This document shows, piece after piece, positions 52,704 through 64,000 of a stretch of DNA of 64,000 nucleotides. A program made the position numbers and the translations under genes. The stretch lies in the NCBI RefSeq assembly GCF_001644605.1, contig NZ_CP011388.1:4383501-4447500 (forward strand). Reading direction: 5' to 3'. Within the stretch, counting starts at the first letter, position 1. Every line of letters starts with the position of its first letter. Under the pieces are notes generated by a model, which had not been told where the DNA came from, made no database searches, and saw nothing but the letters and a program-made list of their open reading frames with translations. Source of the stretch: Paenibacillus swuensis. GTDB lineage: Bacteria; Bacillota; Bacilli; Paenibacillales; DY6.

Positions 52704-52708
52704 CATAA

Positions 52709-52748
52709 ACAAACATCCCGCTCATCGAAATGAGCGGGATGTTTGTTG
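52709..52748. terminator. bidirectional rho-independent terminator
   Basis: Perfect 18-bp stem (arms AACAAACATCCCGCTCAT and complement) with a CGAA loop between convergent genes. Confidence 0.92.
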
Positions 52749-52754
52749 TTAAGA

Positions 52755-53729
52755 CTATATTTGAATGGGTTTCCCGGTTCTTGCCGATTCCGTCGCGGCC
52801 ACGGTAATCTCCTGAGAACGCAAAGCGTCTTCGTAGCTTGAGCAAATGCCGGATGGATCACCTGTGCGCACGGCGTGAATAAATATTTCATTTTCAAGTT
52901 CATATGGATTCGCTTCATCTTTGGAAACCTGCACGTCATTCCCGCTGGTGATGGTTTTTAACTCCGACATCGTCCAATCCAACACACCGTCGGCTGTGTA
53001 AAATTTCAAGCCGGTATCAAACATTCCATCAGGTAGTATACAAGTATTGGACAGATTCGCGATCGCGCCGCTTGCAAGCTTGAGTGTTACCGTTCCGACA
53101 TCCGCCACACTGACATCATCATACTTGCGATGCATTTCCCGCTGAGCGAACGAAGCGTACACTTCCGTCGCCTCACCCGCCACATACCGCATCAAATCAA
53201 CCAAATGAGTCGTTTGCTCCACAAATTGTCCGCCCGAGAGTTCCTGCTTGGGCCACCAGGCATTATTAACAAACGAGCCCATCCAAGCTCCTGTAACCAT
53301 GCCTAATCCTGACTGTTCAATGGATTCTCGCATCTGCTTCACGGTTTCCCGATACCTCAAATGATATCCTACGGAAGTGATGACCGGTCGCAGCTTTAGT
53401 TGTTCAACGATGGACCGAGGCGTTTCAATTCCGGTATGCAAAGGCTTCTCCACCAGAAAAGGGATGCCGCGTTCAATCAATAGAGATTCCATATCGCCAT
53501 GCGCATAAGGCGGTACACACAGATAGACCGCATCCAGCTTTTCGGCATCCAACATGTCCAGGAACGAATCGTAGGTGCGCATACCTGAGAATTGTGCCGC
53601 GAACGCCTCAGCTTTCGCTGCGGAGGTACCGCATACCGCTGCAACGGAAACGCCGTCCATCTTCGAAAGAATTTCAGCATGCACCTTACCGAACCAACCC
53701 GTTCCAGCCAATCCTACCTTCATGCTCAT
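52755..53729 (-). CDS. Gfo/Idh/MocA-family oxidoreductase
   Basis: A 324-residue NAD(P)-dependent oxidoreductase. The Rossmann motif GLAGTGWFGKVHA is at the N-terminus, EKPL (catalytic Lys) near residue 95 and GGQFVEQTTHLVDLMRYV carries the conserved His. Members act on sugars, inositols or their derivatives. GGGGGG precedes the ATG. It lies 125 bases after glcF; no terminator was seen between, so it may be the last gene of the recycling operon. Substrate unknown. Confidence 0.88.
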   Translation of the reverse strand: MSMKVGLAGTGWFGKVHAEILSKMDGVSVAAVCGTSAAKAEAFAAQFSGMRTYDSFLDMLDAEKLDAVYLCVPPYAHGDMESLLIERGIPFLVEKPLHTGIETPRSIVEQLKLRPVITSVGYHLRYRETVKQMRESIEQSGLGMVTGAWMGSFVNNAWWPKQELSGGQFVEQTTHLVDLMRYVAGEATEVYASFAQREMHRKYDDVSVADVGTVTLKLASGAIANLSNTCILPDGMFDTGLKFYTADGVLDWTMSELKTITSGNDVQVSKDEANPYELENEIFIHAVRTGDPSGICSSYEDALRSQEITVAATESARTGKPIQI

Positions 53730-53854: not shown

Positions 53855-55186
53855 TCACCGCACCAAGCGGTCATACAGAAAATCGGCGATATGTAAGGCC
53901 TCCATTTGGCCGCTGCAGCCATGCTTCTCAATCCCGAGCTTCATTTGCAGATGGCAGCCCGGGTTGCTGGTGACCACATACCTGACGCCGGCCGCGTTCA
54001 CGTTCTCCATCTTATGCTCCAGGATTTGATTCGACATCTCCGGCTGGGTCATGTTATAGATGCCTGCCGAACCGCAGCAGGAGCCGGCATCCTTCATTTC
54101 TACATAAGCGCCGCCGGCTGCTTGCTGCAACAGCTGACGCGGCGCTTGTCCGCCTTTCATGACGTTGCGCAGGTGGCAGGAATCCTGATAGGTGACACGA
54201 GCCGTCCCTTGGTCTTGCGGTAAAGCCGCGTATTGCAGCGGCCGCCCCTTTTCCGCCAGGATTGTGCTGATATCTTTCACCCGTTTGGCGAACCAGATCG
54301 CCTGATCATGCCATTCCGGCTCCTCATGAAGCAGGTGGTCGTATTCCACCAGAATCGCCCCGCAGCCTCCCGCATTCGAGACGATGAAATCCACACCGGC
54401 CTCCTGAAATGCACGAATGTTGTGCTTGGCCAGTTCCTTCGCCTGCTCCTTCTCCCCGCTGTGCGCATGGAGAGCGCCGCAGCAGTTCTGGGCTTCGGGA
54501 ATAACGACATCGAAACCCGCTTCGGACAACAACTCCACTGTTTTCCGGTTCGTTTCCGTGAACATCACATCCATTAAACAGCCCCGGAACATACCAACCG
54601 TTCCATGCTTCTCTCCTTTGGCAGCAACCCGCGTCCCCATTATTTCGACAATTCCTTTGCCCGAAGCGTCGGGCAGGATTCTCTCCATGGAAGCGAGCTG
54701 ACTGGAAAACATCCCGACCGCATTGGTCTTCCGAATCAACGTCTGGACGCCCGATTTCTTATACACGTTCATTGCCGCACCCAGCAGGCGCATCCGGTGT
54801 TGATGGGGGAACAGCTGTTTGAACACAGCTTTTCGCACGCCTTTCACCCACCAGCGGTGCTGCGTCGTATGCAGCTCCACCGCCTCGCGGGCCTGTTCGA
54901 TCAGCTGGCCGTACTTGACGTCCGCCGGACAGGCCGGTTCGCATGCACGGCAGCCCAGGCAGTGATTCATCTGCTCTTCGAACATGACGTTCGGCTCCAT
55001 CAGACCGTCCACCGCCGCCTTCATCAGCGAAATCCGCCCGCGCGGCGACTCAGCCTCCACTCCCGTTTCTTTGAAGGTCGGGCAGGCGGGCAGGCAGAAC
55101 CCGCACCGCATGCAGTTGGTCAGCTGCTCGTAATCGAGCTTAGCCTGCAGAGTCTCCCGAAGTGCCGCCGTTCCTCCTTTAGCCAC
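53855..55186 (-). CDS. glcF: GlcF-like iron-sulfur subunit of a glycolate/D-lactate oxidase
   Basis: About 443 residues. Two 4Fe-4S motifs, CMRCGFCLPACP and CLGCRACEPACP, lie in the first 90 residues; two CCG domains follow (NCCGALHAHSG, SCCGSAGIYN). It passes electrons from the FAD subunit to the membrane chain. Start is GTG at 55186 behind GGTGGTGA, overlapping glcD by 8 bases; TTG at 55192 is the other option. With a muropeptide-recycling operon before it, D-lactate is a likelier substrate than glycolate. Confidence 0.88.
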   Translation of the reverse strand: MAKGGTAALRETLQAKLDYEQLTNCMRCGFCLPACPTFKETGVEAESPRGRISLMKAAVDGLMEPNVMFEEQMNHCLGCRACEPACPADVKYGQLIEQAREAVELHTTQHRWWVKGVRKAVFKQLFPHQHRMRLLGAAMNVYKKSGVQTLIRKTNAVGMFSSQLASMERILPDASGKGIVEIMGTRVAAKGEKHGTVGMFRGCLMDVMFTETNRKTVELLSEAGFDVVIPEAQNCCGALHAHSGEKEQAKELAKHNIRAFQEAGVDFIVSNAGGCGAILVEYDHLLHEEPEWHDQAIWFAKRVKDISTILAEKGRPLQYAALPQDQGTARVTYQDSCHLRNVMKGGQAPRQLLQQAAGGAYVEMKDAGSCCGSAGIYNMTQPEMSNQILEHKMENVNAAGVRYVVTSNPGCHLQMKLGIEKHGCSGQMEALHIADFLYDRLVR

Positions 55187-56591
55187 GCTCAATCACCACC
55201 CTGCGCCTGGACTCTTTCGCAAACATTTTGCCCGGATTCAGCAGATTGTGCGGGTCGAACGCCTCTTTAATGGCCTCCATCACTTGAATGCCGGGACCGC
55301 CCACTTTCCATTCCAGGTAAGGAGCCTTCACCATGCCTACACCATGCTCACCCGTAATCGTACCGCCCAGCCGGATTGCGGCTTCGAAAATATCCTCAAA
55401 AGCCGCCTCCACCCGGTGTACCTCTTCCAGATCCCTCGCATCGGTCGTGGCTGTCGGATGCAGGTTTCCGTCGCCCGCATGGCCGAACGTACAAATCTGT
55501 ACGTTGTGCTTTTCAGCGATCCGGTTGATCTCCAGCACCATCTCGGCGATTTTGGAGCGCGGCACCGTTGCATCCTCCAGTATCGTAGTTGGACGCAGCC
55601 TGGCCAGTGCCGTAAACGCGCTCCGTCTTGCCGTCAGCAGCTTAAGCGCTTCCTCCGGCGTCTCCGCGATGCTGATCCTTGCAGCCTGTTCTTCCCGGCA
55701 AATCCCGGAAATCTTCGCGATATCCCGCTCGACCATTTCCGGTTCGCCGTCCTGCTCGATCAGCAGGATAGCCGCCATATCCAGCGGCAGTCCGAGCTTC
55801 GCGAAATCATCCACGACCCGGATCGTCGGATTGTCCATAATCTCCAGCGTCGCCGGAATGATCCGGTTTTCGATAATGCTGGATACCGTCCGGGCGGCTC
55901 CGTAAATGTCCGTGTACATGGCGAGCATCGTCTTTTTGGCCTTAGGAGGGGGAATCAGCTTTAACGTCGCTTCGGTAATGACCGCCAATGTCCCTTCGGA
56001 GCCTATTAACAGCTTTGTCAGGTCATAGCCCGCCACATCCTTCATCAGCTTCCCGCCCGTCCGCAGAATCTGCCCATCAGCGAGCACGCACTCCAGCCCC
56101 AGCACGTAATCTTTGGTCGTTCCGTATTTCAAGCCGCGGAGTCCGCCGGAGCATTCCGCGATATTTCCGCCGATTGTGGAGATCGCCATACTGCTAGGAT
56201 CCGGAGGGTAGAACAGCCCTAGCCCCTCGATATGCTCAATAAACTGCTTTGTGATGATTCCCGGCTGAACGGTGGCAGTTAAATTCTGCGTATCCACTTC
56301 CACAATCGCATTCATCCGGTGCATCACCATCACGACACCGCCGTGAACAGGCACCGTGCCGCCGCATAAATTCGTTCCTGACCCCCGGCTGACGAGCGGA
56401 ATCCGGTGCTCGTGAAGCACTTTCATGATAGCGGATACCTCAGCCGTATTCCGGGGATAGATTACCCCGTCAGGCAGCGACTGCAGCATGGGCGTCCCGT
56501 CGTAAGAATGCGTCACCAGCGACTGCGCATCGTCTTTGAAATAAGCATCGCCCACGATCCCGCGGAGCAAATGTTTCACATTACTGTCCAT
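55179..56591 (-). CDS. glcD: GlcD-like FAD-linked oxidase (glycolate or D-lactate)
   Basis: A 470-residue flavoprotein of the VAO/GlcD family. The FAD-binding part has PLVSRGSGTNLCGG (about residue 65), IGGNIAECSGG and GLKYGTTKDYV; the C-terminal FAD-linked oxidase domain ends with HNLLNPGKMF. It oxidises a 2-hydroxy acid. GGAGAAGGA precedes the ATG. It begins 42 bases after anmK and overlaps glcF. In E. coli the partner GlcE is separate; here only D and F are present, as in several D-lactate oxidases. Confidence 0.9.
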   Translation of the reverse strand: MDSNVKHLLRGIVGDAYFKDDAQSLVTHSYDGTPMLQSLPDGVIYPRNTAEVSAIMKVLHEHRIPLVSRGSGTNLCGGTVPVHGGVVMVMHRMNAIVEVDTQNLTATVQPGIITKQFIEHIEGLGLFYPPDPSSMAISTIGGNIAECSGGLRGLKYGTTKDYVLGLECVLADGQILRTGGKLMKDVAGYDLTKLLIGSEGTLAVITEATLKLIPPPKAKKTMLAMYTDIYGAARTVSSIIENRIIPATLEIMDNPTIRVVDDFAKLGLPLDMAAILLIEQDGEPEMVERDIAKISGICREEQAARISIAETPEEALKLLTARRSAFTALARLRPTTILEDATVPRSKIAEMVLEINRIAEKHNVQICTFGHAGDGNLHPTATTDARDLEEVHRVEAAFEDIFEAAIRLGGTITGEHGVGMVKAPYLEWKVGGPGIQVMEAIKEAFDPHNLLNPGKMFAKESRRRVVIERG

Positions 56592-56633
56592 CTTGGTCCT
56601 TCTCCTTTATGCCAAAGGTTCCTGCTGCAACTC

Positions 56634-57824
56634 CTACCACGGCAAAGCCAGCTTTCCCATCACCGTCGGCCGTTGCGCCCCTGTCGCGGAGGTCAGGTTG
56701 TTAGGCACACCTTGAATATAATGATCCGCAAAGATAGCGAAAGCGACCGCTTCCTTCCCATCCGCACTTATGCCCGCCTGATCCGAGGTCATCACCCTCA
56801 GCTCGGGGAGCTCGTCGGCCAGCATGTTCATCAACGTTTCGTTATGAGCGCCTCCGCCGGAAACCAGCACTTCCTCAATCCTTGTATCAGGCAAAATAAA
56901 GTCGCGGTAACTCCGGGCAATCGTTCGTGCCGTAAAAGCAGTAAATGTAGCCATGATATCGGCCGCAGGCAAACTGTCCGAAAGCGCACGCAGGATCCAC
57001 CCGGATGCGTAATCCTTGCCGAACTCCTCACGGCCGGTCGTTTTTACAGGATGCTTGGACAGGTATGGATGCTCCATCATTTCAGCCAGCAGACGTTCGT
57101 CCACTCGGCCTTCGGATGCCCACGCGCCTCCCTGGTCATAGGCCAGCTGTCCCCCGCTTAACTCATAGGCCGCCTGATCAATGATCATATTGCCAGGTCC
57201 CGTGTCAAAAGCGATCATTCGCTCCGGACCGGCGCCTGCCGGGATCGACGCGCAATTGCTGATGCCGCCTATATTTTGCAGTATTCTGCCCTTGTCCTTG
57301 TGCCGGAACATAATGTAATCGGCATACGGCGTAAGCGGGGCCCCCTGACCGCCGACCGCCATATCCGCCGGGCGGAAATCCCCCACGGTCAGCACCCCTG
57401 TCGCCTTGGCCAGCACAGACAAATCCCCGATTTGCAGCGTGGATTTCGGACGGAAGGAATCCTGCGGGTCCGCGTACGGCATATGCCAGATCGTCTGCCC
57501 GTGCGAGCTGACCAGATCAATATCAGCCATGGACAGTCCCGCCTGCCGGACAGCCTCTTTCACCGCATTCGCCCAATTTTGAGCCAAGTAAAAACTCATC
57601 CCGCTGATCGCAGGTGAGCTGGAATGCTGCTCCGAGCACAGTTCTTTCAACTTCTCCCGGAGCTCTTCTGTGTAAGGAAGAGACAAGAAATGAAGCAATT
57701 CCACTCTGGAGTCAATGCCTTGCCCTTCGATGCGGACTACAGCGGCGTCGATACCGTCAAGGGAAGTGCCGGACATCAGCCCGACGATGACCCTGGACGG
57801 CTTCTGAAGCAGGTTATCGAACAA
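56634..57824 (-). CDS. anmK: anhydro-N-acetylmuramic acid kinase
   Basis: A 396-residue kinase that opens 1,6-anhydro-MurNAc and phosphorylates it to MurNAc-6-phosphate. Motifs are GLMSGTSLDGIDAAVV (N-terminal), SSHGQTIWH, DTGPGNMIID and VSGGGAHN. Start is TTG at 57824 behind GGGGAGTGA, overlapping nagZ by 11 bases. 1,6-anhydro sugars arise from lytic transglycosylases, so the cell should face such products. Confidence 0.95.
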   Translation of the reverse strand: MFDNLLQKPSRVIVGLMSGTSLDGIDAAVVRIEGQGIDSRVELLHFLSLPYTEELREKLKELCSEQHSSSPAISGMSFYLAQNWANAVKEAVRQAGLSMADIDLVSSHGQTIWHMPYADPQDSFRPKSTLQIGDLSVLAKATGVLTVGDFRPADMAVGGQGAPLTPYADYIMFRHKDKGRILQNIGGISNCASIPAGAGPERMIAFDTGPGNMIIDQAAYELSGGQLAYDQGGAWASEGRVDERLLAEMMEHPYLSKHPVKTTGREEFGKDYASGWILRALSDSLPAADIMATFTAFTARTIARSYRDFILPDTRIEEVLVSGGGAHNETLMNMLADELPELRVMTSDQAGISADGKEAVAFAIFADHYIQGVPNNLTSATGAQRPTVMGKLALPW

Positions 57825-59427
57825 AGGAAGTCACTCCCCACCCTGCAGGATACGACTCGCCAATCGTAACAGGCAGCTTCCCTTGAGGGACCAATGCGCC
57901 TGACATCAGCTTGGCTGCGCTCTGTAAAGCCAGCGGGCGGCTTTCATACAGGCATACATACGCAGGCACGTCCGCATAAGCCTGCAAATCGTAAGGATTC
58001 CGCAGTGCGGCTACGACAGGCTGTTTGCCCAGAGCCAGCAATGCGCGGACGAGCGAAACCTGATCCGGGTGCAAATGGGCATTGTAAGTCCCCACAACGA
58101 TTTGCTCATACCAGCCAGCTTCTTTAAGCATTTCTTGGGTCAGCTCGCCGGCCTTCGTCAGCGGAATTACCCTCTCCCGCACATCAATTCCTTCTGCAGC
58201 CAGGGCGCTTCCCAGTGTGGCGCGTTCCCCATAGGACTCATCTACCAGCGAAACCGCCGCAGGCTCTACGGTAAGAACGAGCGTTGGCTTAGCAGCGAGC
58301 GGCAGCAGTCCTGCCGTATCCTTCACAAGCGTGATGCTAGCTTCGCTGAAGCGTTCCGCCGCGGAGCGGTGTTCCGGCGTGTTCACGATCCGGCTGAAAT
58401 CACCCGGCTCCGCAGCGAGGGCCCGTTTGGCCTTCAAAGCCAGCAGCCGCTCTACCGATTGGTCGATGCGCTCCTCGCTGATGCGACCGCTGCGAACAGC
58501 CTCGACGAGCGCGGCGGCCGCCCCCGCCTGAAGCTCAAGCGAATGGCTGATCAGTACGAGATCCGCCCCGGCTTCCACAGCCATGACCGCCGCATGCACG
58601 GTTCCGTAATGATCCGCAATGGCCTTCATCTCCATGCAATCCGTCATAATAACGCCGGCAAAACCAAGTTCCTCGCGCAGCAAACCGGTCAGCACCCGGT
58701 GCGACAAGGTCACCGGAACGCCGCTGTCATCAAAGGCCGGGAACCGGATATGCGCCGACATCACGGAGTCGACACCCGCTTCGACAGCCTTTATAAACGG
58801 AACCAGCTCAACCGAACGGATCCGCTCGCTGCTGTGTGTGATCACAGGCAAATCCAGGTGTGAATCAATATGCGTGTCTCCATGTCCAGGGAAATGTTTG
58901 GCCGTAGCCACAACATTCGCATCTTGATATCCGCGCAGTGTCTGCACTCCCAGCTCCGCTACCCGGTCAGGCTGTTCCCCGAATGAGCGTACCCCGATAA
59001 CCGGGTTCATCGCATTGACGTTAATGTCCAGGTCCGGCGCAAAATTCAAGTTGATTCCAAGCGCGCGAAGCTCGGTTCCGCTGATCTTGGCCGATTCGTA
59101 CGCCGCTTCCGCGGACCCGCCCGCCGCCAGCGCCATCGCGCCCGGCATAAGCGCAACTCCCTCCGTAATTCGGGCAACCATACCGCCCTCCTGGTCGATG
59201 GAAATCCACAGGGGCGGCTGTCCCGCTTCGGCGGCCATCAGCTGCAAATCCCGGCTTAAAGCCGCAACTTGTGCAGGGTGCCGCACATTGCGGGCAAAGT
59301 AAATGACCCCGCCCATATGATGATCCTTAATCATCGTCCGCACATGTTCCGCGGGTTCCGTTCCTTCAAAACCGCCGAGAATCATCTGCCCGATTTTTTG
59401 TTCCAACGTCCAACGGCTAAACTCCAT
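57814..59427 (-). CDS. nagZ: beta-N-acetylglucosaminidase NagZ (GH3)
   Basis: A 537-residue GH3 enzyme. KHFPGHGDTHIDSH carries the His/Asp dyad of NagZ enzymes and VIMTDCMEMKAI the nucleophilic Asp. It removes GlcNAc from GlcNAc-MurNAc fragments. Its C-terminal second domain resembles B. subtilis NagZ, but there is no signal peptide, so it should act in the cytoplasm. GGGAGG before the ATG. It overlaps both neighbours by 11 bases. Confidence 0.92.
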   Translation of the reverse strand: MEFSRWTLEQKIGQMILGGFEGTEPAEHVRTMIKDHHMGGVIYFARNVRHPAQVAALSRDLQLMAAEAGQPPLWISIDQEGGMVARITEGVALMPGAMALAAGGSAEAAYESAKISGTELRALGINLNFAPDLDINVNAMNPVIGVRSFGEQPDRVAELGVQTLRGYQDANVVATAKHFPGHGDTHIDSHLDLPVITHSSERIRSVELVPFIKAVEAGVDSVMSAHIRFPAFDDSGVPVTLSHRVLTGLLREELGFAGVIMTDCMEMKAIADHYGTVHAAVMAVEAGADLVLISHSLELQAGAAAALVEAVRSGRISEERIDQSVERLLALKAKRALAAEPGDFSRIVNTPEHRSAAERFSEASITLVKDTAGLLPLAAKPTLVLTVEPAAVSLVDESYGERATLGSALAAEGIDVRERVIPLTKAGELTQEMLKEAGWYEQIVVGTYNAHLHPDQVSLVRALLALGKQPVVAALRNPYDLQAYADVPAYVCLYESRPLALQSAAKLMSGALVPQGKLPVTIGESYPAGWGVTSFVR

Positions 59428-60349
59428 CTGTCATTCCTCCCTGTCTTGTCCAGGCCATGAGCGCTGCACCGCCGGAAGCATCCTTCGCCGGCATGCCGCA
59501 ATGCAGATGCGGATAATGACGGCTTAACAGCTGAACAAATGTTTCCCTGATATATGAATTGTTCAACAGCACACTTCCGGTCATTGCTAAGCGCCCCTGT
59601 TGCAAAGTAAGCTTCTCCGTTACGGGTACGGTCAACTCATACAATGACTGTGCGCTTCTTGCTGCAATCCCCAGCGCCGTTTCATCCCCCGAATCGCAGG
59701 CGGTCGTCAAGAGCGGTGCCAACGCAGCTATATCTTTCTTATGCCTGTGCTTGTCATATACAAAGCCGATGACCTCTTTAACCGTATTCAGCTCAAGCTG
59801 TTCATAAACGAGCCGGCTGATCGCGGTAGCCTGGATACGTCCGTCTTCATGCCTAACCAGCGCGGACAGCAATTCCCTCCCGATGCTGTATCCGCTTCCC
59901 TCATCGTCGATAAGATGCCCGAATCCGCCGGACCGGTGCGACACACCGGCTCCGTTCCGGCCGTAACAGATCGAACCGGTTCCTGCGACCAGAATGATGC
60001 CGGGTCTCCCCTCATGCGCGCCGTACAAGGCGGCTTCCTGATCGCCGACGATCAGCAGCTTCCCTGGATAGCCGCAAGCTCGCACGTCCTCTTCCAATCG
60101 GGGAATAACGTCCGGATTGCTGACGCCGGCCGCCCCGATAACTACCTGCGCACAATGCTCGAGACCGCCGGTACATTCCGCCATGACGGCGAAAAGCTCC
60201 CCAAGGTTTCCGCGGACCGTTTCCGCATCCATTCCGTTATAATTAATACCCCCGGACGTAATCGTCCGGACGATATTCCCATTATCATCCATAAGGGTTA
60301 CCGCGGTTTTCGTTCCCCCGCCGTCCAGACCTGCCACATAGCTGCTCAT
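59417..60349 (-). CDS. murK: amino-sugar kinase, MurK/N-acetylglucosamine kinase type (BadF/BcrA family)
   Basis: A 310-residue ASKHA-fold kinase. AGLDGGGTKTAVTLMD (phosphate 1), LVAGTGSICYGRN and GGFGHLIDDEGSGYSIGRE are hallmarks of the GlcNAc/MurNAc kinase family. It likely phosphorylates free GlcNAc and MurNAc made by NagZ and NamZ. AAAGGATG lies before the ATG. Strict choice between GlcNAc and MurNAc cannot be made. Confidence 0.85.
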   Translation of the reverse strand: MSSYVAGLDGGGTKTAVTLMDDNGNIVRTITSGGINYNGMDAETVRGNLGELFAVMAECTGGLEHCAQVVIGAAGVSNPDVIPRLEEDVRACGYPGKLLIVGDQEAALYGAHEGRPGIILVAGTGSICYGRNGAGVSHRSGGFGHLIDDEGSGYSIGRELLSALVRHEDGRIQATAISRLVYEQLELNTVKEVIGFVYDKHRHKKDIAALAPLLTTACDSGDETALGIAARSAQSLYELTVPVTEKLTLQQGRLAMTGSVLLNNSYIRETFVQLLSRHYPHLHCGMPAKDASGGAALMAWTRQGGMTDGV

Positions 60350-60363
60350 AAGCGCACATCCTT

Positions 60364-61509
60364 TTAATACATATGATACTGCTCTTTCATCACTGCGAAC
60401 GTCCGGCTCTCGTCCCGAAACCGCTCCAACAACCCGGACACATCTACATCAGGCTCCCTCAACATCCGATCCCCTGCAAGTAAATCGATGAAATGCCTTG
60501 AGCCTTCTTTCACCGGCGGAAGGAAGGCAAACTCCTCATAATTCCGCTTCACCGTAAGCAGCAGCTCCACCCCGGTCTCCACCGGCCGGAACAACCGCCG
60601 GTCCAGTACATGCAGCTGCACCCCGCGGCACAGCTCCCCTTGAAACTTGGAGAAAGAAGGACGGAAATACACAGGGCGGAACACCACGCCCGGCAATTCC
60701 TTCCGATTCATCTCCCTTGCCAGTTTCTCCGCATCCAGGAACGGCGCGCCGATCATTTCGAATGGCGCCGTCGTGCCTCTTCCTTCGGACAGATTCGTCC
60801 CTTCAAACAGACAAGTTCCGGGGTACACTAAAGCCGTATCGAACCTGGGAATGCCCATAGACGGCATAATCCAGTGCAGGCCCGTATCCGGGAACTGCAT
60901 CGTCCTCTCCCAACCTTGGCAGCGGACAATATTCAGGTTCGCCCGCCAGTTCATTCGGTCGTTGACCAAGCAGGCGATTTCGCCCGCTGTCAGGCCGTAC
61001 CGCATAGTGAGCGGATATCCGCCTAAAAACGACTTATATTCCGGCTTCAGCAAGTTCCCCTCCACCGTCACCCCGCCCAGCGGATTAATCCGGTCCAGCA
61101 CGACAAACTCCTTACCCGCCGAAGCGCAGTCCTCCAACGCGTTCAGCATCGTATAAATAAACGTATAATACCGGGTCCCTACATCCTGGATGTCATATAC
61201 GACCATATCCACTTCATCCAACATCTGCGCCGTCAGCCGCTTGGAGTCCTTGCGGTATAAACTGTGCACAGGCACGCCGGTCATGGGATCCAGATACGAA
61301 TCTATAACTGCCCCGGCGCCTTGATCCCCGCGCACCCCATGCTCCGGAGAGAATAGGGCCGCCAAATGAAATCTCTCATTCAGGATGTCAATCGTGGATA
61401 CAAACTCCCTGTTCAACCCGGTTGGCACGGTAATTAAGCCCAGACGCTTCCCCTTGAACAAATGGGTATACTGCCCGATATGATCGACTCCGTTGCTGAC
61501 TTTACCCAT
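60364..61509 (-). CDS. namZ: exo-beta-N-acetylmuramidase NamZ (DUF1343)
   Basis: A 381-residue DUF1343 protein related to B. subtilis NamZ/YbbC, which cuts MurNAc from the non-reducing end of peptidoglycan fragments. Family features are LFSPEHGVRGDQGAGA, VVYDIQDVGTRYYTFI and GTNLSEGRGTTAPFEMIGAPF. Unlike the secreted B. subtilis protein, it lacks a signal peptide. GGGAGG before the ATG. It follows the importer genes after a hairpin. Confidence 0.92.
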   Translation of the reverse strand: MGKVSNGVDHIGQYTHLFKGKRLGLITVPTGLNREFVSTIDILNERFHLAALFSPEHGVRGDQGAGAVIDSYLDPMTGVPVHSLYRKDSKRLTAQMLDEVDMVVYDIQDVGTRYYTFIYTMLNALEDCASAGKEFVVLDRINPLGGVTVEGNLLKPEYKSFLGGYPLTMRYGLTAGEIACLVNDRMNWRANLNIVRCQGWERTMQFPDTGLHWIMPSMGIPRFDTALVYPGTCLFEGTNLSEGRGTTAPFEMIGAPFLDAEKLAREMNRKELPGVVFRPVYFRPSFSKFQGELCRGVQLHVLDRRLFRPVETGVELLLTVKRNYEEFAFLPPVKEGSRHFIDLLAGDRMLREPDVDVSGLLERFRDESRTFAVMKEQYHMY

Positions 61510-61530
61510 GGCTGCCTCCCGCCTCTTGCC

Positions 61531-61565
61531 AAAATGACTGCGACAAGCCCCTTGTCACAGTCATT
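61531..61565 (-). terminator. intra-operon hairpin between importer and namZ
   Basis: Arms AATGACTG-C-GACAAG and CTTGTC-A-CAGTCATT pair fully on the minus RNA (U-G at the odd place), followed by T4. Probably a partial terminator that lowers expression of downstream enzymes. Confidence 0.6.
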
Positions 61566-61602
61566 CCTATTTTGCAACTATTCAATTGCTTCATCTAAAC
61601 GC

Positions 61603-62463
61603 TTAGCCTTTAACCGCTCCTACCGTCACACCCTCAAGGAAGTACTTCTGCAGGCTGAAGAACAGAATGAACATCGGCAAAGCTGAAATCGCAGCGCCCG
61701 CCATCATCGGAGCGATGTACGTGGTGTTGGCGAAGCGGAAGTTTTTCAATCCGACCTGAATCGTCTGCATTTCCATAGAGTTCGTGATCAGAAGCGGCCA
61801 GAAGAACGTATTCCAGCTGTCCATGAACGTCAGAATTGCCATAACGGCCAGCACGGTTTTGGATAACGGAAGAATGATTTTCATATAAATGGTGAACTGA
61901 TTGCACCCTTCCATCTTGGCGCTTTCCAGAATTTCATTCGGAATACTGCTCATAAATTGTTTGGCAAGGAAGATGTTATACACCGTAACAATCCCCGGCA
62001 ATATAAGAGCTCTGTACGTATTTTGAAGTTCAAAAATATTGACCATCAGAATATACAGCGGAACCTGTGTTACCTGATACGGAATCATCATGGAGACAAG
62101 CAGGATGCCGAACAGCACATTTTTGCCCCGAAACTTCAATTTGGAAAACGCAAACCCCGCCATGCTCGCGAACACTACGTTGGAAACCGTAACCGCAACC
62201 GCTACGACTAACGAGTTCAGAATCCAACGGTATGAATACTCACTGTATTCAAAGAAGAATTTGAACGAAGCCAGCGTAAACTTACTGGGAAAAATGGAGT
62301 AACTGACCGCGCCGGCTTCCACCGGATCGCCGAGAGCCGAGACAACCATGAAATAAATCGGAAAGATCGTGGCCAGAGCGAATAAAAGCAATGCAGTGAA
62401 AATAATCGCATTCCGTGTAAAGCGGACCCGGGGTCTTCCGGTGTGATTGCTGTATAATGCCAT
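61603..62463 (-). CDS. CUT1 ABC importer permease (MalG type)
   Basis: A 286-residue six-helix permease with EAA loop ILESAKMEGCNQFTIYMKI. Second permease of the importer for cell-wall sugars. No ATPase gene is present. Start ATG at 62463. Confidence 0.9.
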   Translation of the reverse strand: MALYSNHTGRPRVRFTRNAIIFTALLLFALATIFPIYFMVVSALGDPVEAGAVSYSIFPSKFTLASFKFFFEYSEYSYRWILNSLVVAVAVTVSNVVFASMAGFAFSKLKFRGKNVLFGILLVSMMIPYQVTQVPLYILMVNIFELQNTYRALILPGIVTVYNIFLAKQFMSSIPNEILESAKMEGCNQFTIYMKIILPLSKTVLAVMAILTFMDSWNTFFWPLLITNSMEMQTIQVGLKNFRFANTTYIAPMMAGAAISALPMFILFFSLQKYFLEGVTVGAVKG

Positions 62464-62478
62464 ATGGAATCCCCCTTC

Positions 62479-63384
62479 TTAATACTCGACGTTCTTACCG
62501 GCGTATTTAAACTGGATAAACGAAATGATGGCGATCACGAATGCCAGAACGAGCGACTGGGCCGCGGCTTTACCGAACTCGAAATAAGTAAACGCATTGT
62601 TGAAAATCAGCAAACCTACCATCGTCGTTGCATTGTCCGGTCCGCCGCCCGTCATAAGGTAAGCGTTCTGGAACACCTGGAATGATCCGATGACACCGGT
62701 TACCAACAGGAACAGCGTTGCCGGTCTCAAGCTTGGAATGACGATATGCCACACCTTCTGCACAAAGTTCGCGCCGTCCAGCTCCGCCGCCTCATAGTAG
62801 GTCTCGTCGATGCCCAGCAAGCCCGCGAGGTAAATGATGATGCTGGTGCCGTGGCTGGAAAGCCAGGACATCAACACCAGAGAGAACATGGACGTACTGC
62901 TGGAACCAAGCCAGTTCTGGCTCGGAATTCCGAAAAACTGAAAAACCTGATTAAGAATCCCTCCTGGTAGAGCGTCAAAAATCCACAGCCATACGACGGA
63001 CAGAGCGACACCCGACGCCACAACAGGCAAATAGTAAACGGCTTTAAAAAACGATTGTGTTTTCTTGCTGAACGGCAGCACCATAATGGCGATCGCAAAC
63101 GAGATGAACAGGTTTACGGGTACTGTGAGTATCGTATAAACGACCGTGTTCTTCATGGATTTCCAAAAGAGGGCGTCCTTTAACGTAGCCGTGTAATTGT
63201 CCAATCCGATATACGTGGAACCAAGAGGCTTATATTTCTGCAAACTGATAATAAATGCACTCACAAAAGGGTAGGCGGTAAACATGGCGAAAGTGGTCAG
63301 CGCCACTGCAATAAACAGATAACCCCAGACACCGTCCGATTCCAGCTTGTTTCTCTTCCTTACTTTACTAAGCGTATTCATCAT
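62479..63384 (-). CDS. CUT1 ABC importer permease (MalF type)
   Basis: A 301-residue permease; EAA loop YEAAELDGANFVQKVWHIV. GGGGTAAG precedes the ATG at 63384. It pairs with the next gene 15 bases downstream. The cargo is inferred from the neighbours to be GlcNAc/MurNAc disaccharides or monomers. Confidence 0.9.
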   Translation of the reverse strand: MMNTLSKVRKRNKLESDGVWGYLFIAVALTTFAMFTAYPFVSAFIISLQKYKPLGSTYIGLDNYTATLKDALFWKSMKNTVVYTILTVPVNLFISFAIAIMVLPFSKKTQSFFKAVYYLPVVASGVALSVVWLWIFDALPGGILNQVFQFFGIPSQNWLGSSSTSMFSLVLMSWLSSHGTSIIIYLAGLLGIDETYYEAAELDGANFVQKVWHIVIPSLRPATLFLLVTGVIGSFQVFQNAYLMTGGGPDNATTMVGLLIFNNAFTYFEFGKAAAQSLVLAFVIAIISFIQFKYAGKNVEY

Positions 63385-63419
63385 GTCTTACCCCGTTTCG
63401 ATCACTCGGTATTGTGAGG

Positions 63420-63461
63420 TAAAAAGTTCGGATAGCCGCTCAGCGTACAGGGCTATCCGAA
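63420..63461 (-). terminator. intra-operon attenuator between binding protein and permeases
   Basis: Perfect 11-bp stem TTCGGATAGCC/GGCTATCCGAA with 13-base loop, then CTTTTTA on the minus strand. Such partial terminators let the binding protein be made in excess over permeases. Confidence 0.75.
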
Positions 63462-63490
63462 GGATTACCGTATGATTATGCGTTCGATTG

Positions 63491-64000
63491 TCAATCTTTC
63501 ACGATTCCGTCTTCGCCGAAGGCTGCTACAGCTGCTTTCTTAACTGCTTCATACATTTCTTCCGCTTTAATCTCGCCCGCAATCAATGCCTGGAATTTAG
63601 GAATGATGACTTCGGTCTCCAGCTTAATCGCTTTAGCGCTCAGCTCGGTAGGGATATCTTTACGCGCCGGTGTTGCGTTCTTCACCATAAACTCTACTGC
63701 GGCCACGTTATCCGGGTTGCGTTCCAAGGTCATACTTTGGGCCGCTTCTTTACCGCTTGCCGTAATTTGTTGAACCATCAGTTCGCTGTTCGCCGTTGCC
63801 GCTACGCTGCCGCTTGCCAGGAAGTAAGCCGCTTTAACAACGTTTGCTTTGTGCTCGGCGGTCGGCTCTTTTTTGCCTCGGAACGTTACGTATCCGTCTA
63901 CAACAGCAGCTGTAGAGATCTTCGCGCCTTGGAATGTCGGAGCGGGCAGAACGATGTAATCGGCAGGAATGCTCTCTTTAACAGCGCTCGCATCTTTAGC
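63491..64000 (-). CDS. CUT1 solute-binding protein, 5' part beyond window
   Basis: The last 169 residues of a sugar-binding protein continue to the window edge; no start is inside. Features such as TFQGAKISTAAVVDGYV, AAYFLASGS and a C-terminal YEAVKKAAVAAFG match the C-terminal lobe of these proteins. The ATG at 63778 is internal, not the start. It lies upstream of the two permeases. Confidence 0.82.
   Translation of the reverse strand, partial: AKDASAVKESIPADYIVLPAPTFQGAKISTAAVVDGYVTFRGKKEPTAEHKANVVKAAYFLASGSVAATANSELMVQQITASGKEAAQSMTLERNPDNVAAVEFMVKNATPARKDIPTELSAKAIKLETEVIIPKFQALIAGEIKAEEMYEAVKKAAVAAFGEDGIVKD

Follow-up and report, generated by a model that had tools for sequence, protein, structure and literature searches.

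A MurNAc catabolic operon of Paenibacillus swuensis with a candidate D-lactate oxidation step encoded by glcDF

The right end of the window (the whole 64,000-nucleotide stretch of Paenibacillus swuensis DNA analyzed here) holds a run of MurNAc-sugar genes, all on the minus strand and with identities backed by profile searches. The gene order is murQ-SBP-perm-perm-namZ-murK-nagZ-anmK-glcD-glcF, with murR just upstream. Because the run continues past the window edge, its first genes are described from L007, an extended read of the same genome, which is a single contig of 5.01 Mb. From the 3' end of the run, the features are:

52708..52747, minus strand: strong terminator-like hairpin after the Gfo/Idh gene 3' of glcF; could end the transcript
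53855..55192, minus strand: glcF, iron-sulfur subunit (4Fe-4S dicluster and two CCG domains; Pfam CCG and Fer4_8), final gene of the run
55179..56591, minus strand: glcD, FAD-linked D-2-hydroxyacid dehydrogenase subunit (Pfam FAD_binding_4 and FAD-oxidase_C)
56592..56633, minus strand: anmK-glcD gap of 42 bases, with ribosome-binding site aaaggagaagg and no terminator
56634..57824, minus strand: anmK, 1,6-anhydro-MurNAc kinase (Pfam AnmK; NF007148 at 490 bits, above the cutoff of 387)
57814..59427, minus strand: nagZ, beta-N-acetylhexosaminidase of family GH3 (Glyco_hydro_3; NF003740 at 212.9 bits, above the cutoff of 207)
59417..60349, minus strand: predicted murK-like sugar kinase, BadF/BcrAD family (Pfam BcrAD_BadFG)
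60364..61509, minus strand: namZ, exo-beta-N-acetylmuramidase with both domains present (Pfam NamZ_N and NamZ_C)
61603..62463, minus strand: ABC importer permease, CUT1-like (Pfam BPD_transp_1)
62479..63384, minus strand: second ABC importer permease (Pfam BPD_transp_1)
63491..64000, minus strand, continuing past the edge to 64933 in extended coordinates: importer sugar-binding lipoprotein (complete open reading frame at L007 491-1933; Pfam SBP_bac_1)
64963-65877 (L007 1963-2877), same orientation as the run: murQ (TIGR00274 at 376 bits, above the cutoff of 302)
66181-67050 (L007 3181-4050), same orientation as the run: murR, RpiR-type regulator (HTH_6 and SIS domains)

The first-pass annotation had described the importer, NamZ, kinase, NagZ, and AnmK as one minus-strand run with overlapping genes, and both the profile matches and the 11-base overlaps of murK/nagZ and nagZ/anmK bear this out. 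It had also placed glcD/glcF 42 bases after anmK, which is the gap measured here. The term "fused," which it applied to the operon and the oxidase, is apt for their adjacency but not for the genes, none of which is fused; glcD and glcF themselves overlap by 14 bases. The best solved relative of the BcrAD-family kinase is the MurNAc/GlcNAc kinase 8zo3 (177.5 bits), and we predict a MurK-like enzyme that is a candidate for MurNAc phosphorylation. By eye, neither NamZ nor NagZ has an obvious signal peptide. Also by eye, three relatives (L008, L011, and L020) carry a GNAT-like and PIG-L-deacetylase-like gene pair between the permease and namZ that is absent from the window operon; other relatives have a gap at that place.

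MurQ had been reported as missing from the window, which is correct; a search beyond the upstream edge located murQ ∼1 kb away, in the same orientation, at the head of the minus-strand run and behind murR. The step that produces D-lactate is therefore part of the operon. With MurQ in the cluster and a MurR-type regulator beside murQ, the locus has what is expected of a MurQ-dependent MurNAc catabolic operon; the murR product matched the MurR equivalog model, but below its cutoff. Divergent from murR lie a GH4-like glycosidase gene and a second BadF-type kinase gene (L007 4242-6570, plus strand), with three box-like sites between murR and this pair. A GH4-like glycosidase gene is similarly placed in several relatives.

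Signals at the head of the run comprise a hairpin followed by T's at the end of murR and a promoter-like TTGACC-N17-TACGAT ahead of murQ. Of 19 murQ promoters, most have a box close to TRAAATTTTATTTCA directly before the −35 element; the copy in the window's operon, past the window edge, is degenerate (TAAAATTTTATTTTA). At extended position 65982 of the window's genome (L007 about 2982) and in related murQ promoters, the conserved box is near TRAAATTTTATTTCAAAA-N2-TATTGAC. We regard the murQ-promoter box as a candidate MurR operator, and its conservation suggests that MurR may control the whole run. Upstream of glcD at 120 loci, MurR-like boxes occurred about as often as in shuffled sequence or only slightly more often: six sites matching 10 of 12 box positions were found versus 2.6 expected, five of them from one near-identical clade. 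As the box is not clearly enriched there, MurR coregulation of glcDF would come via read-through from murQ, and stand-alone glcDF loci give no sign of direct MurR control. The run is predicted to be a single transcript, and there may be internal promoter-like sites inside anmK. After glcF lies a gene for a Gfo/Idh oxidoreductase (52755-53729, minus strand), with no terminator in between; a promoter-like site occupies 53811-53784. In relatives, a close homolog of this gene was not seen adjoining glcF.

Catabolism of MurNAc via MurQ releases one D-lactate per sugar. In the pathway we propose, the ABC importer would take up wall sugars or disaccharides, which NamZ and NagZ, both apparently cytoplasmic, would cleave. 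The MurK-like kinase and AnmK would then convert MurNAc and anhydro-MurNAc, respectively, to MurNAc-6-phosphate, from which MurQ would yield D-lactate for oxidation to pyruvate by GlcDF. MurR would govern the whole run from the murQ promoter.

The last step of this pathway depends on the substrate of GlcDF, which, like its respiratory electron acceptor, we infer. GlcD scores highest against glycolate oxidase models, with a near miss for TIGR00387 (558.9 bits versus a cutoff of 567.9) and a much lower score for NF008408 (353.5 versus 897); GlcF reaches 236.7 bits with the NCBIfam GlcF model, under the cutoff of 333. GlcD and GlcF being the closest curated models, the pair could be an ordinary glycolate oxidase whose place behind anmK is incidental. 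The E. coli glycolate operon glcDEFGBA (NC_000913.3) does encode subunits homologous to both proteins, but the window locus differs from it in having no GlcE, no malate synthase, and no divergent GlcC-like regulator; the overlap of glcD and glcF leaves no third gene between them. A further argument against an ordinary glycolate oxidase comes from the window's own genome, where malate synthase was not found and the only glyoxylate carboligase matches fell below the cutoff and are probably acetolactate synthases; glyoxylate from glycolate oxidation would thus be without its usual outlet. GlcD is the only strong GlcD homolog of this genome, with weak FAD-domain paralogs elsewhere. The genes for L-lactate are separate: lutABC is accompanied by an FCD-GntR regulator, and a gene for L-lactate dehydrogenase adjoins one for a lactate permease. 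A possibly broken GntR-family gene, whose sequence contains a single internal TGA, was also seen in this genome (G000:C1:3056735-3057412).

The E. coli enzyme oxidizes both D-lactate and glycolate, with higher affinity for glycolate, a preference for which one study holds Tyr351 responsible (PMC10589216). At this position, all 119 GlcD sequences compared, including that of the window, have Thr, and conservation extends to the residues binding the metal and the carboxyl-hydroxyl moiety. These features permit D-lactate use and are not proof of it. Pocket residues are identical in MurNAc-linked and unlinked homologs, with no visible specialization, and were rejected as a marker of linked GlcD because they do not separate the two groups. 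Among solved structures, GlcD is closest to LctD of a lactate dehydrogenase, to a "glycolate oxidase," and to a mitochondrial D-lactate dehydrogenase. In addition, the window has the two-gene architecture of Desulfovibrio vulgaris DVU3027-3028 (an FAD_binding_4 and FAD-oxidase_C subunit adjoining a 4Fe-4S/CCG subunit), a GlcD/iron-sulfur unit that mutant and activity gel identified as a D-lactate dehydrogenase; the two share their Pfam domains and the annotation "glycolate oxidase" (PMC4481167). The D. vulgaris pair sits in a lactate utilization operon, whereas the pair described here sits in a wall-sugar operon and has a predicted D-lactate role. A GlcD homolog of Mycobacterium tuberculosis is required for growth on D-lactate (PMC13102306).

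GlcDF might also act, possibly along with D-lactate, on another 2-hydroxy acid from wall sugars, e.g., glycolate from the N-glycolylated muramic acid of soil actinobacteria. Glycolate would be a plausible product of de-acylating N-glycolyl sugars, and GlcD enzymes accept both acids (PMC10589216). Given that the genome yielded none of the usual enzymes for glyoxylate use and that the operon contains MurQ, whose known product is D-lactate, we consider this reading highly improbable. The best reading is that GlcDF here would be a D-lactate dehydrogenase finishing MurNAc catabolism.

Searches of the genus and the family covered only the window's own genome. Linkage was surveyed in glcDF neighborhoods across the order. 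Among 392 genomes, a close GlcD was found in 178 and MurQ in 270, and the neighborhoods of 120 glcDF loci of the order were examined. The first-pass annotation had proposed surveying anmK-glcD synteny, and the outcome was divided: recurrent linkage to MurNAc genes was found, but a conserved gene order was not. Among the genomes with the closest AnmK, nine Paenibacillus have an otherwise similar murQ-importer-namZ-murK-anmK operon without glcDF after anmK, and inherited anmK-glcD synteny was rejected on this basis. In eight of these nine, glcD lies elsewhere in the genome. Across the order, glcF follows glcD at all 120 loci, and a divergent FCD-GntR regulator stands directly upstream of glcD at 102, that of the window not among them. 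MurQ, NamZ, or AnmK lies near glcDF at 26 of 120 loci versus about 2 expected, a lower bound because some stretches stop early at contig ends; for MurQ alone, the figures are 16 of 120 versus 0.7. The expectation is a generous null in which six marker genes per genome, an assumed number, are placed at random. In our reading of the clusters, MurQ and AnmK are the commonest specific neighbors of glcDF after GntR. At the remaining 94 loci, the examined stretch holds no MurNAc gene.

As tail probabilities for linkage ignore relatedness, changes were counted on GlcD trees, in which gain and loss are indistinguishable. Linkage of any kind required 12 changes on the tree of 119 sequences. Linkage without GntR required at least six on FastTree and IQ-TREE trees alike, all forced by well-supported branches, for which the simplest reading would be six separate placements of glcDF into MurNAc operons. 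Within this order, the link thus appears to have been repeatedly re-made rather than conserved by descent, which suggests that the usual "glycolate oxidase" label is wrong for the window's pair. The GntR-less linked loci span three types of MurNAc operon:

ABC/NamZ/AnmK operons with glcDF: the window, L109, L199, L152, and L200 (with anmK)
PTS operons murQ-murP-mupG-murR with glcDF: L089, L090, and L159 (murP and mupG confirmed in L090)
ABC operon ending murK-murQ with glcDF: L098

At nine further loci, glcDF lies directly before a tandem murR-murQ. Spacing varies: murK and glcD overlap in L152, a terminator-like sequence precedes glcD in L098, and gaps of up to a few hundred bases precede it in L159 and L199. 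Upstream of glcD in L089, after murQ-murP-mupG-murR, amidohydrolase-, PLP enzyme-, aldolase-, and kinase-like genes and a PTS IIA-like gene were seen by eye. The linked operon types share a MurNAc-6-phosphate intermediate and, as such, have D-lactate in common.

These results bear on two of the alternatives. The glcDF-less operons of the nearest Paenibacillus and the 94 unlinked loci are what an ordinary glycolate oxidase would lead one to expect, but linkage far above chance, with at least six changes on the GlcD tree, argues against incidental placement, and we judge that explanation very unlikely. Alternatively, GlcDF could be a housekeeping D-lactate dehydrogenase serving all D-lactate sources, brought here by chance rearrangement and without MurNAc-specific regulation. 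The eight Paenibacillus genomes with glcD elsewhere and the GntR regulator at most loci agree with such a role, but the window copy lacks this regulator and is spaced as an operon member, and repeated GntR-less placement beside MurNAc genes argues for selected coregulation; we regard this alternative as unlikely. The first-pass proposal, in which the oxidase converts D-lactate from MurQ to pyruvate, is supported, with murQ heading the run and glcDF repeatedly and independently found beside MurNAc genes. Overall, we put at roughly 80% the probability that the locus is a complete operon for MurNAc and anhydro-MurNAc uptake and catabolism that includes a D-lactate oxidation step of its own.

The operon is a variant of known MurNAc catabolic operons. 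Compared with E. coli murQP-yfeW and B. subtilis murQ-murR-murP, as presented in the portion of PMC5061867 consulted, it has an ABC importer in place of the PTS transporter MurP, includes NamZ, NagZ, a kinase, and AnmK, and has an appended D-lactate oxidase not described there for those operons. The first-pass annotation knew of no well-described operon with this link; in searches of the open literature, no paper was found that ties GlcD, glycolate oxidase, or D-lactate dehydrogenase to MurQ or N-acetylmuramic acid in this way. An engineered Corynebacterium glutamicum supplied with MurNAc accumulates lactate (PMC6165865).

In the literature found, the fate of MurQ-derived D-lactate is seldom assigned to a gene; here, the step receives named candidate genes, and a large number of "glycolate oxidase" annotations in Paenibacillales become doubtful. 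More broadly, we give even odds to the view that the whole Paenibacillales GlcDF family is a D-lactate dehydrogenase that MurNAc operons have repeatedly and independently taken in, its own GntR regulator being lost and MurR assuming control. On this view, wall-sugar catabolism would have a built-in step for capturing the carbon and electrons of the lactyl group.
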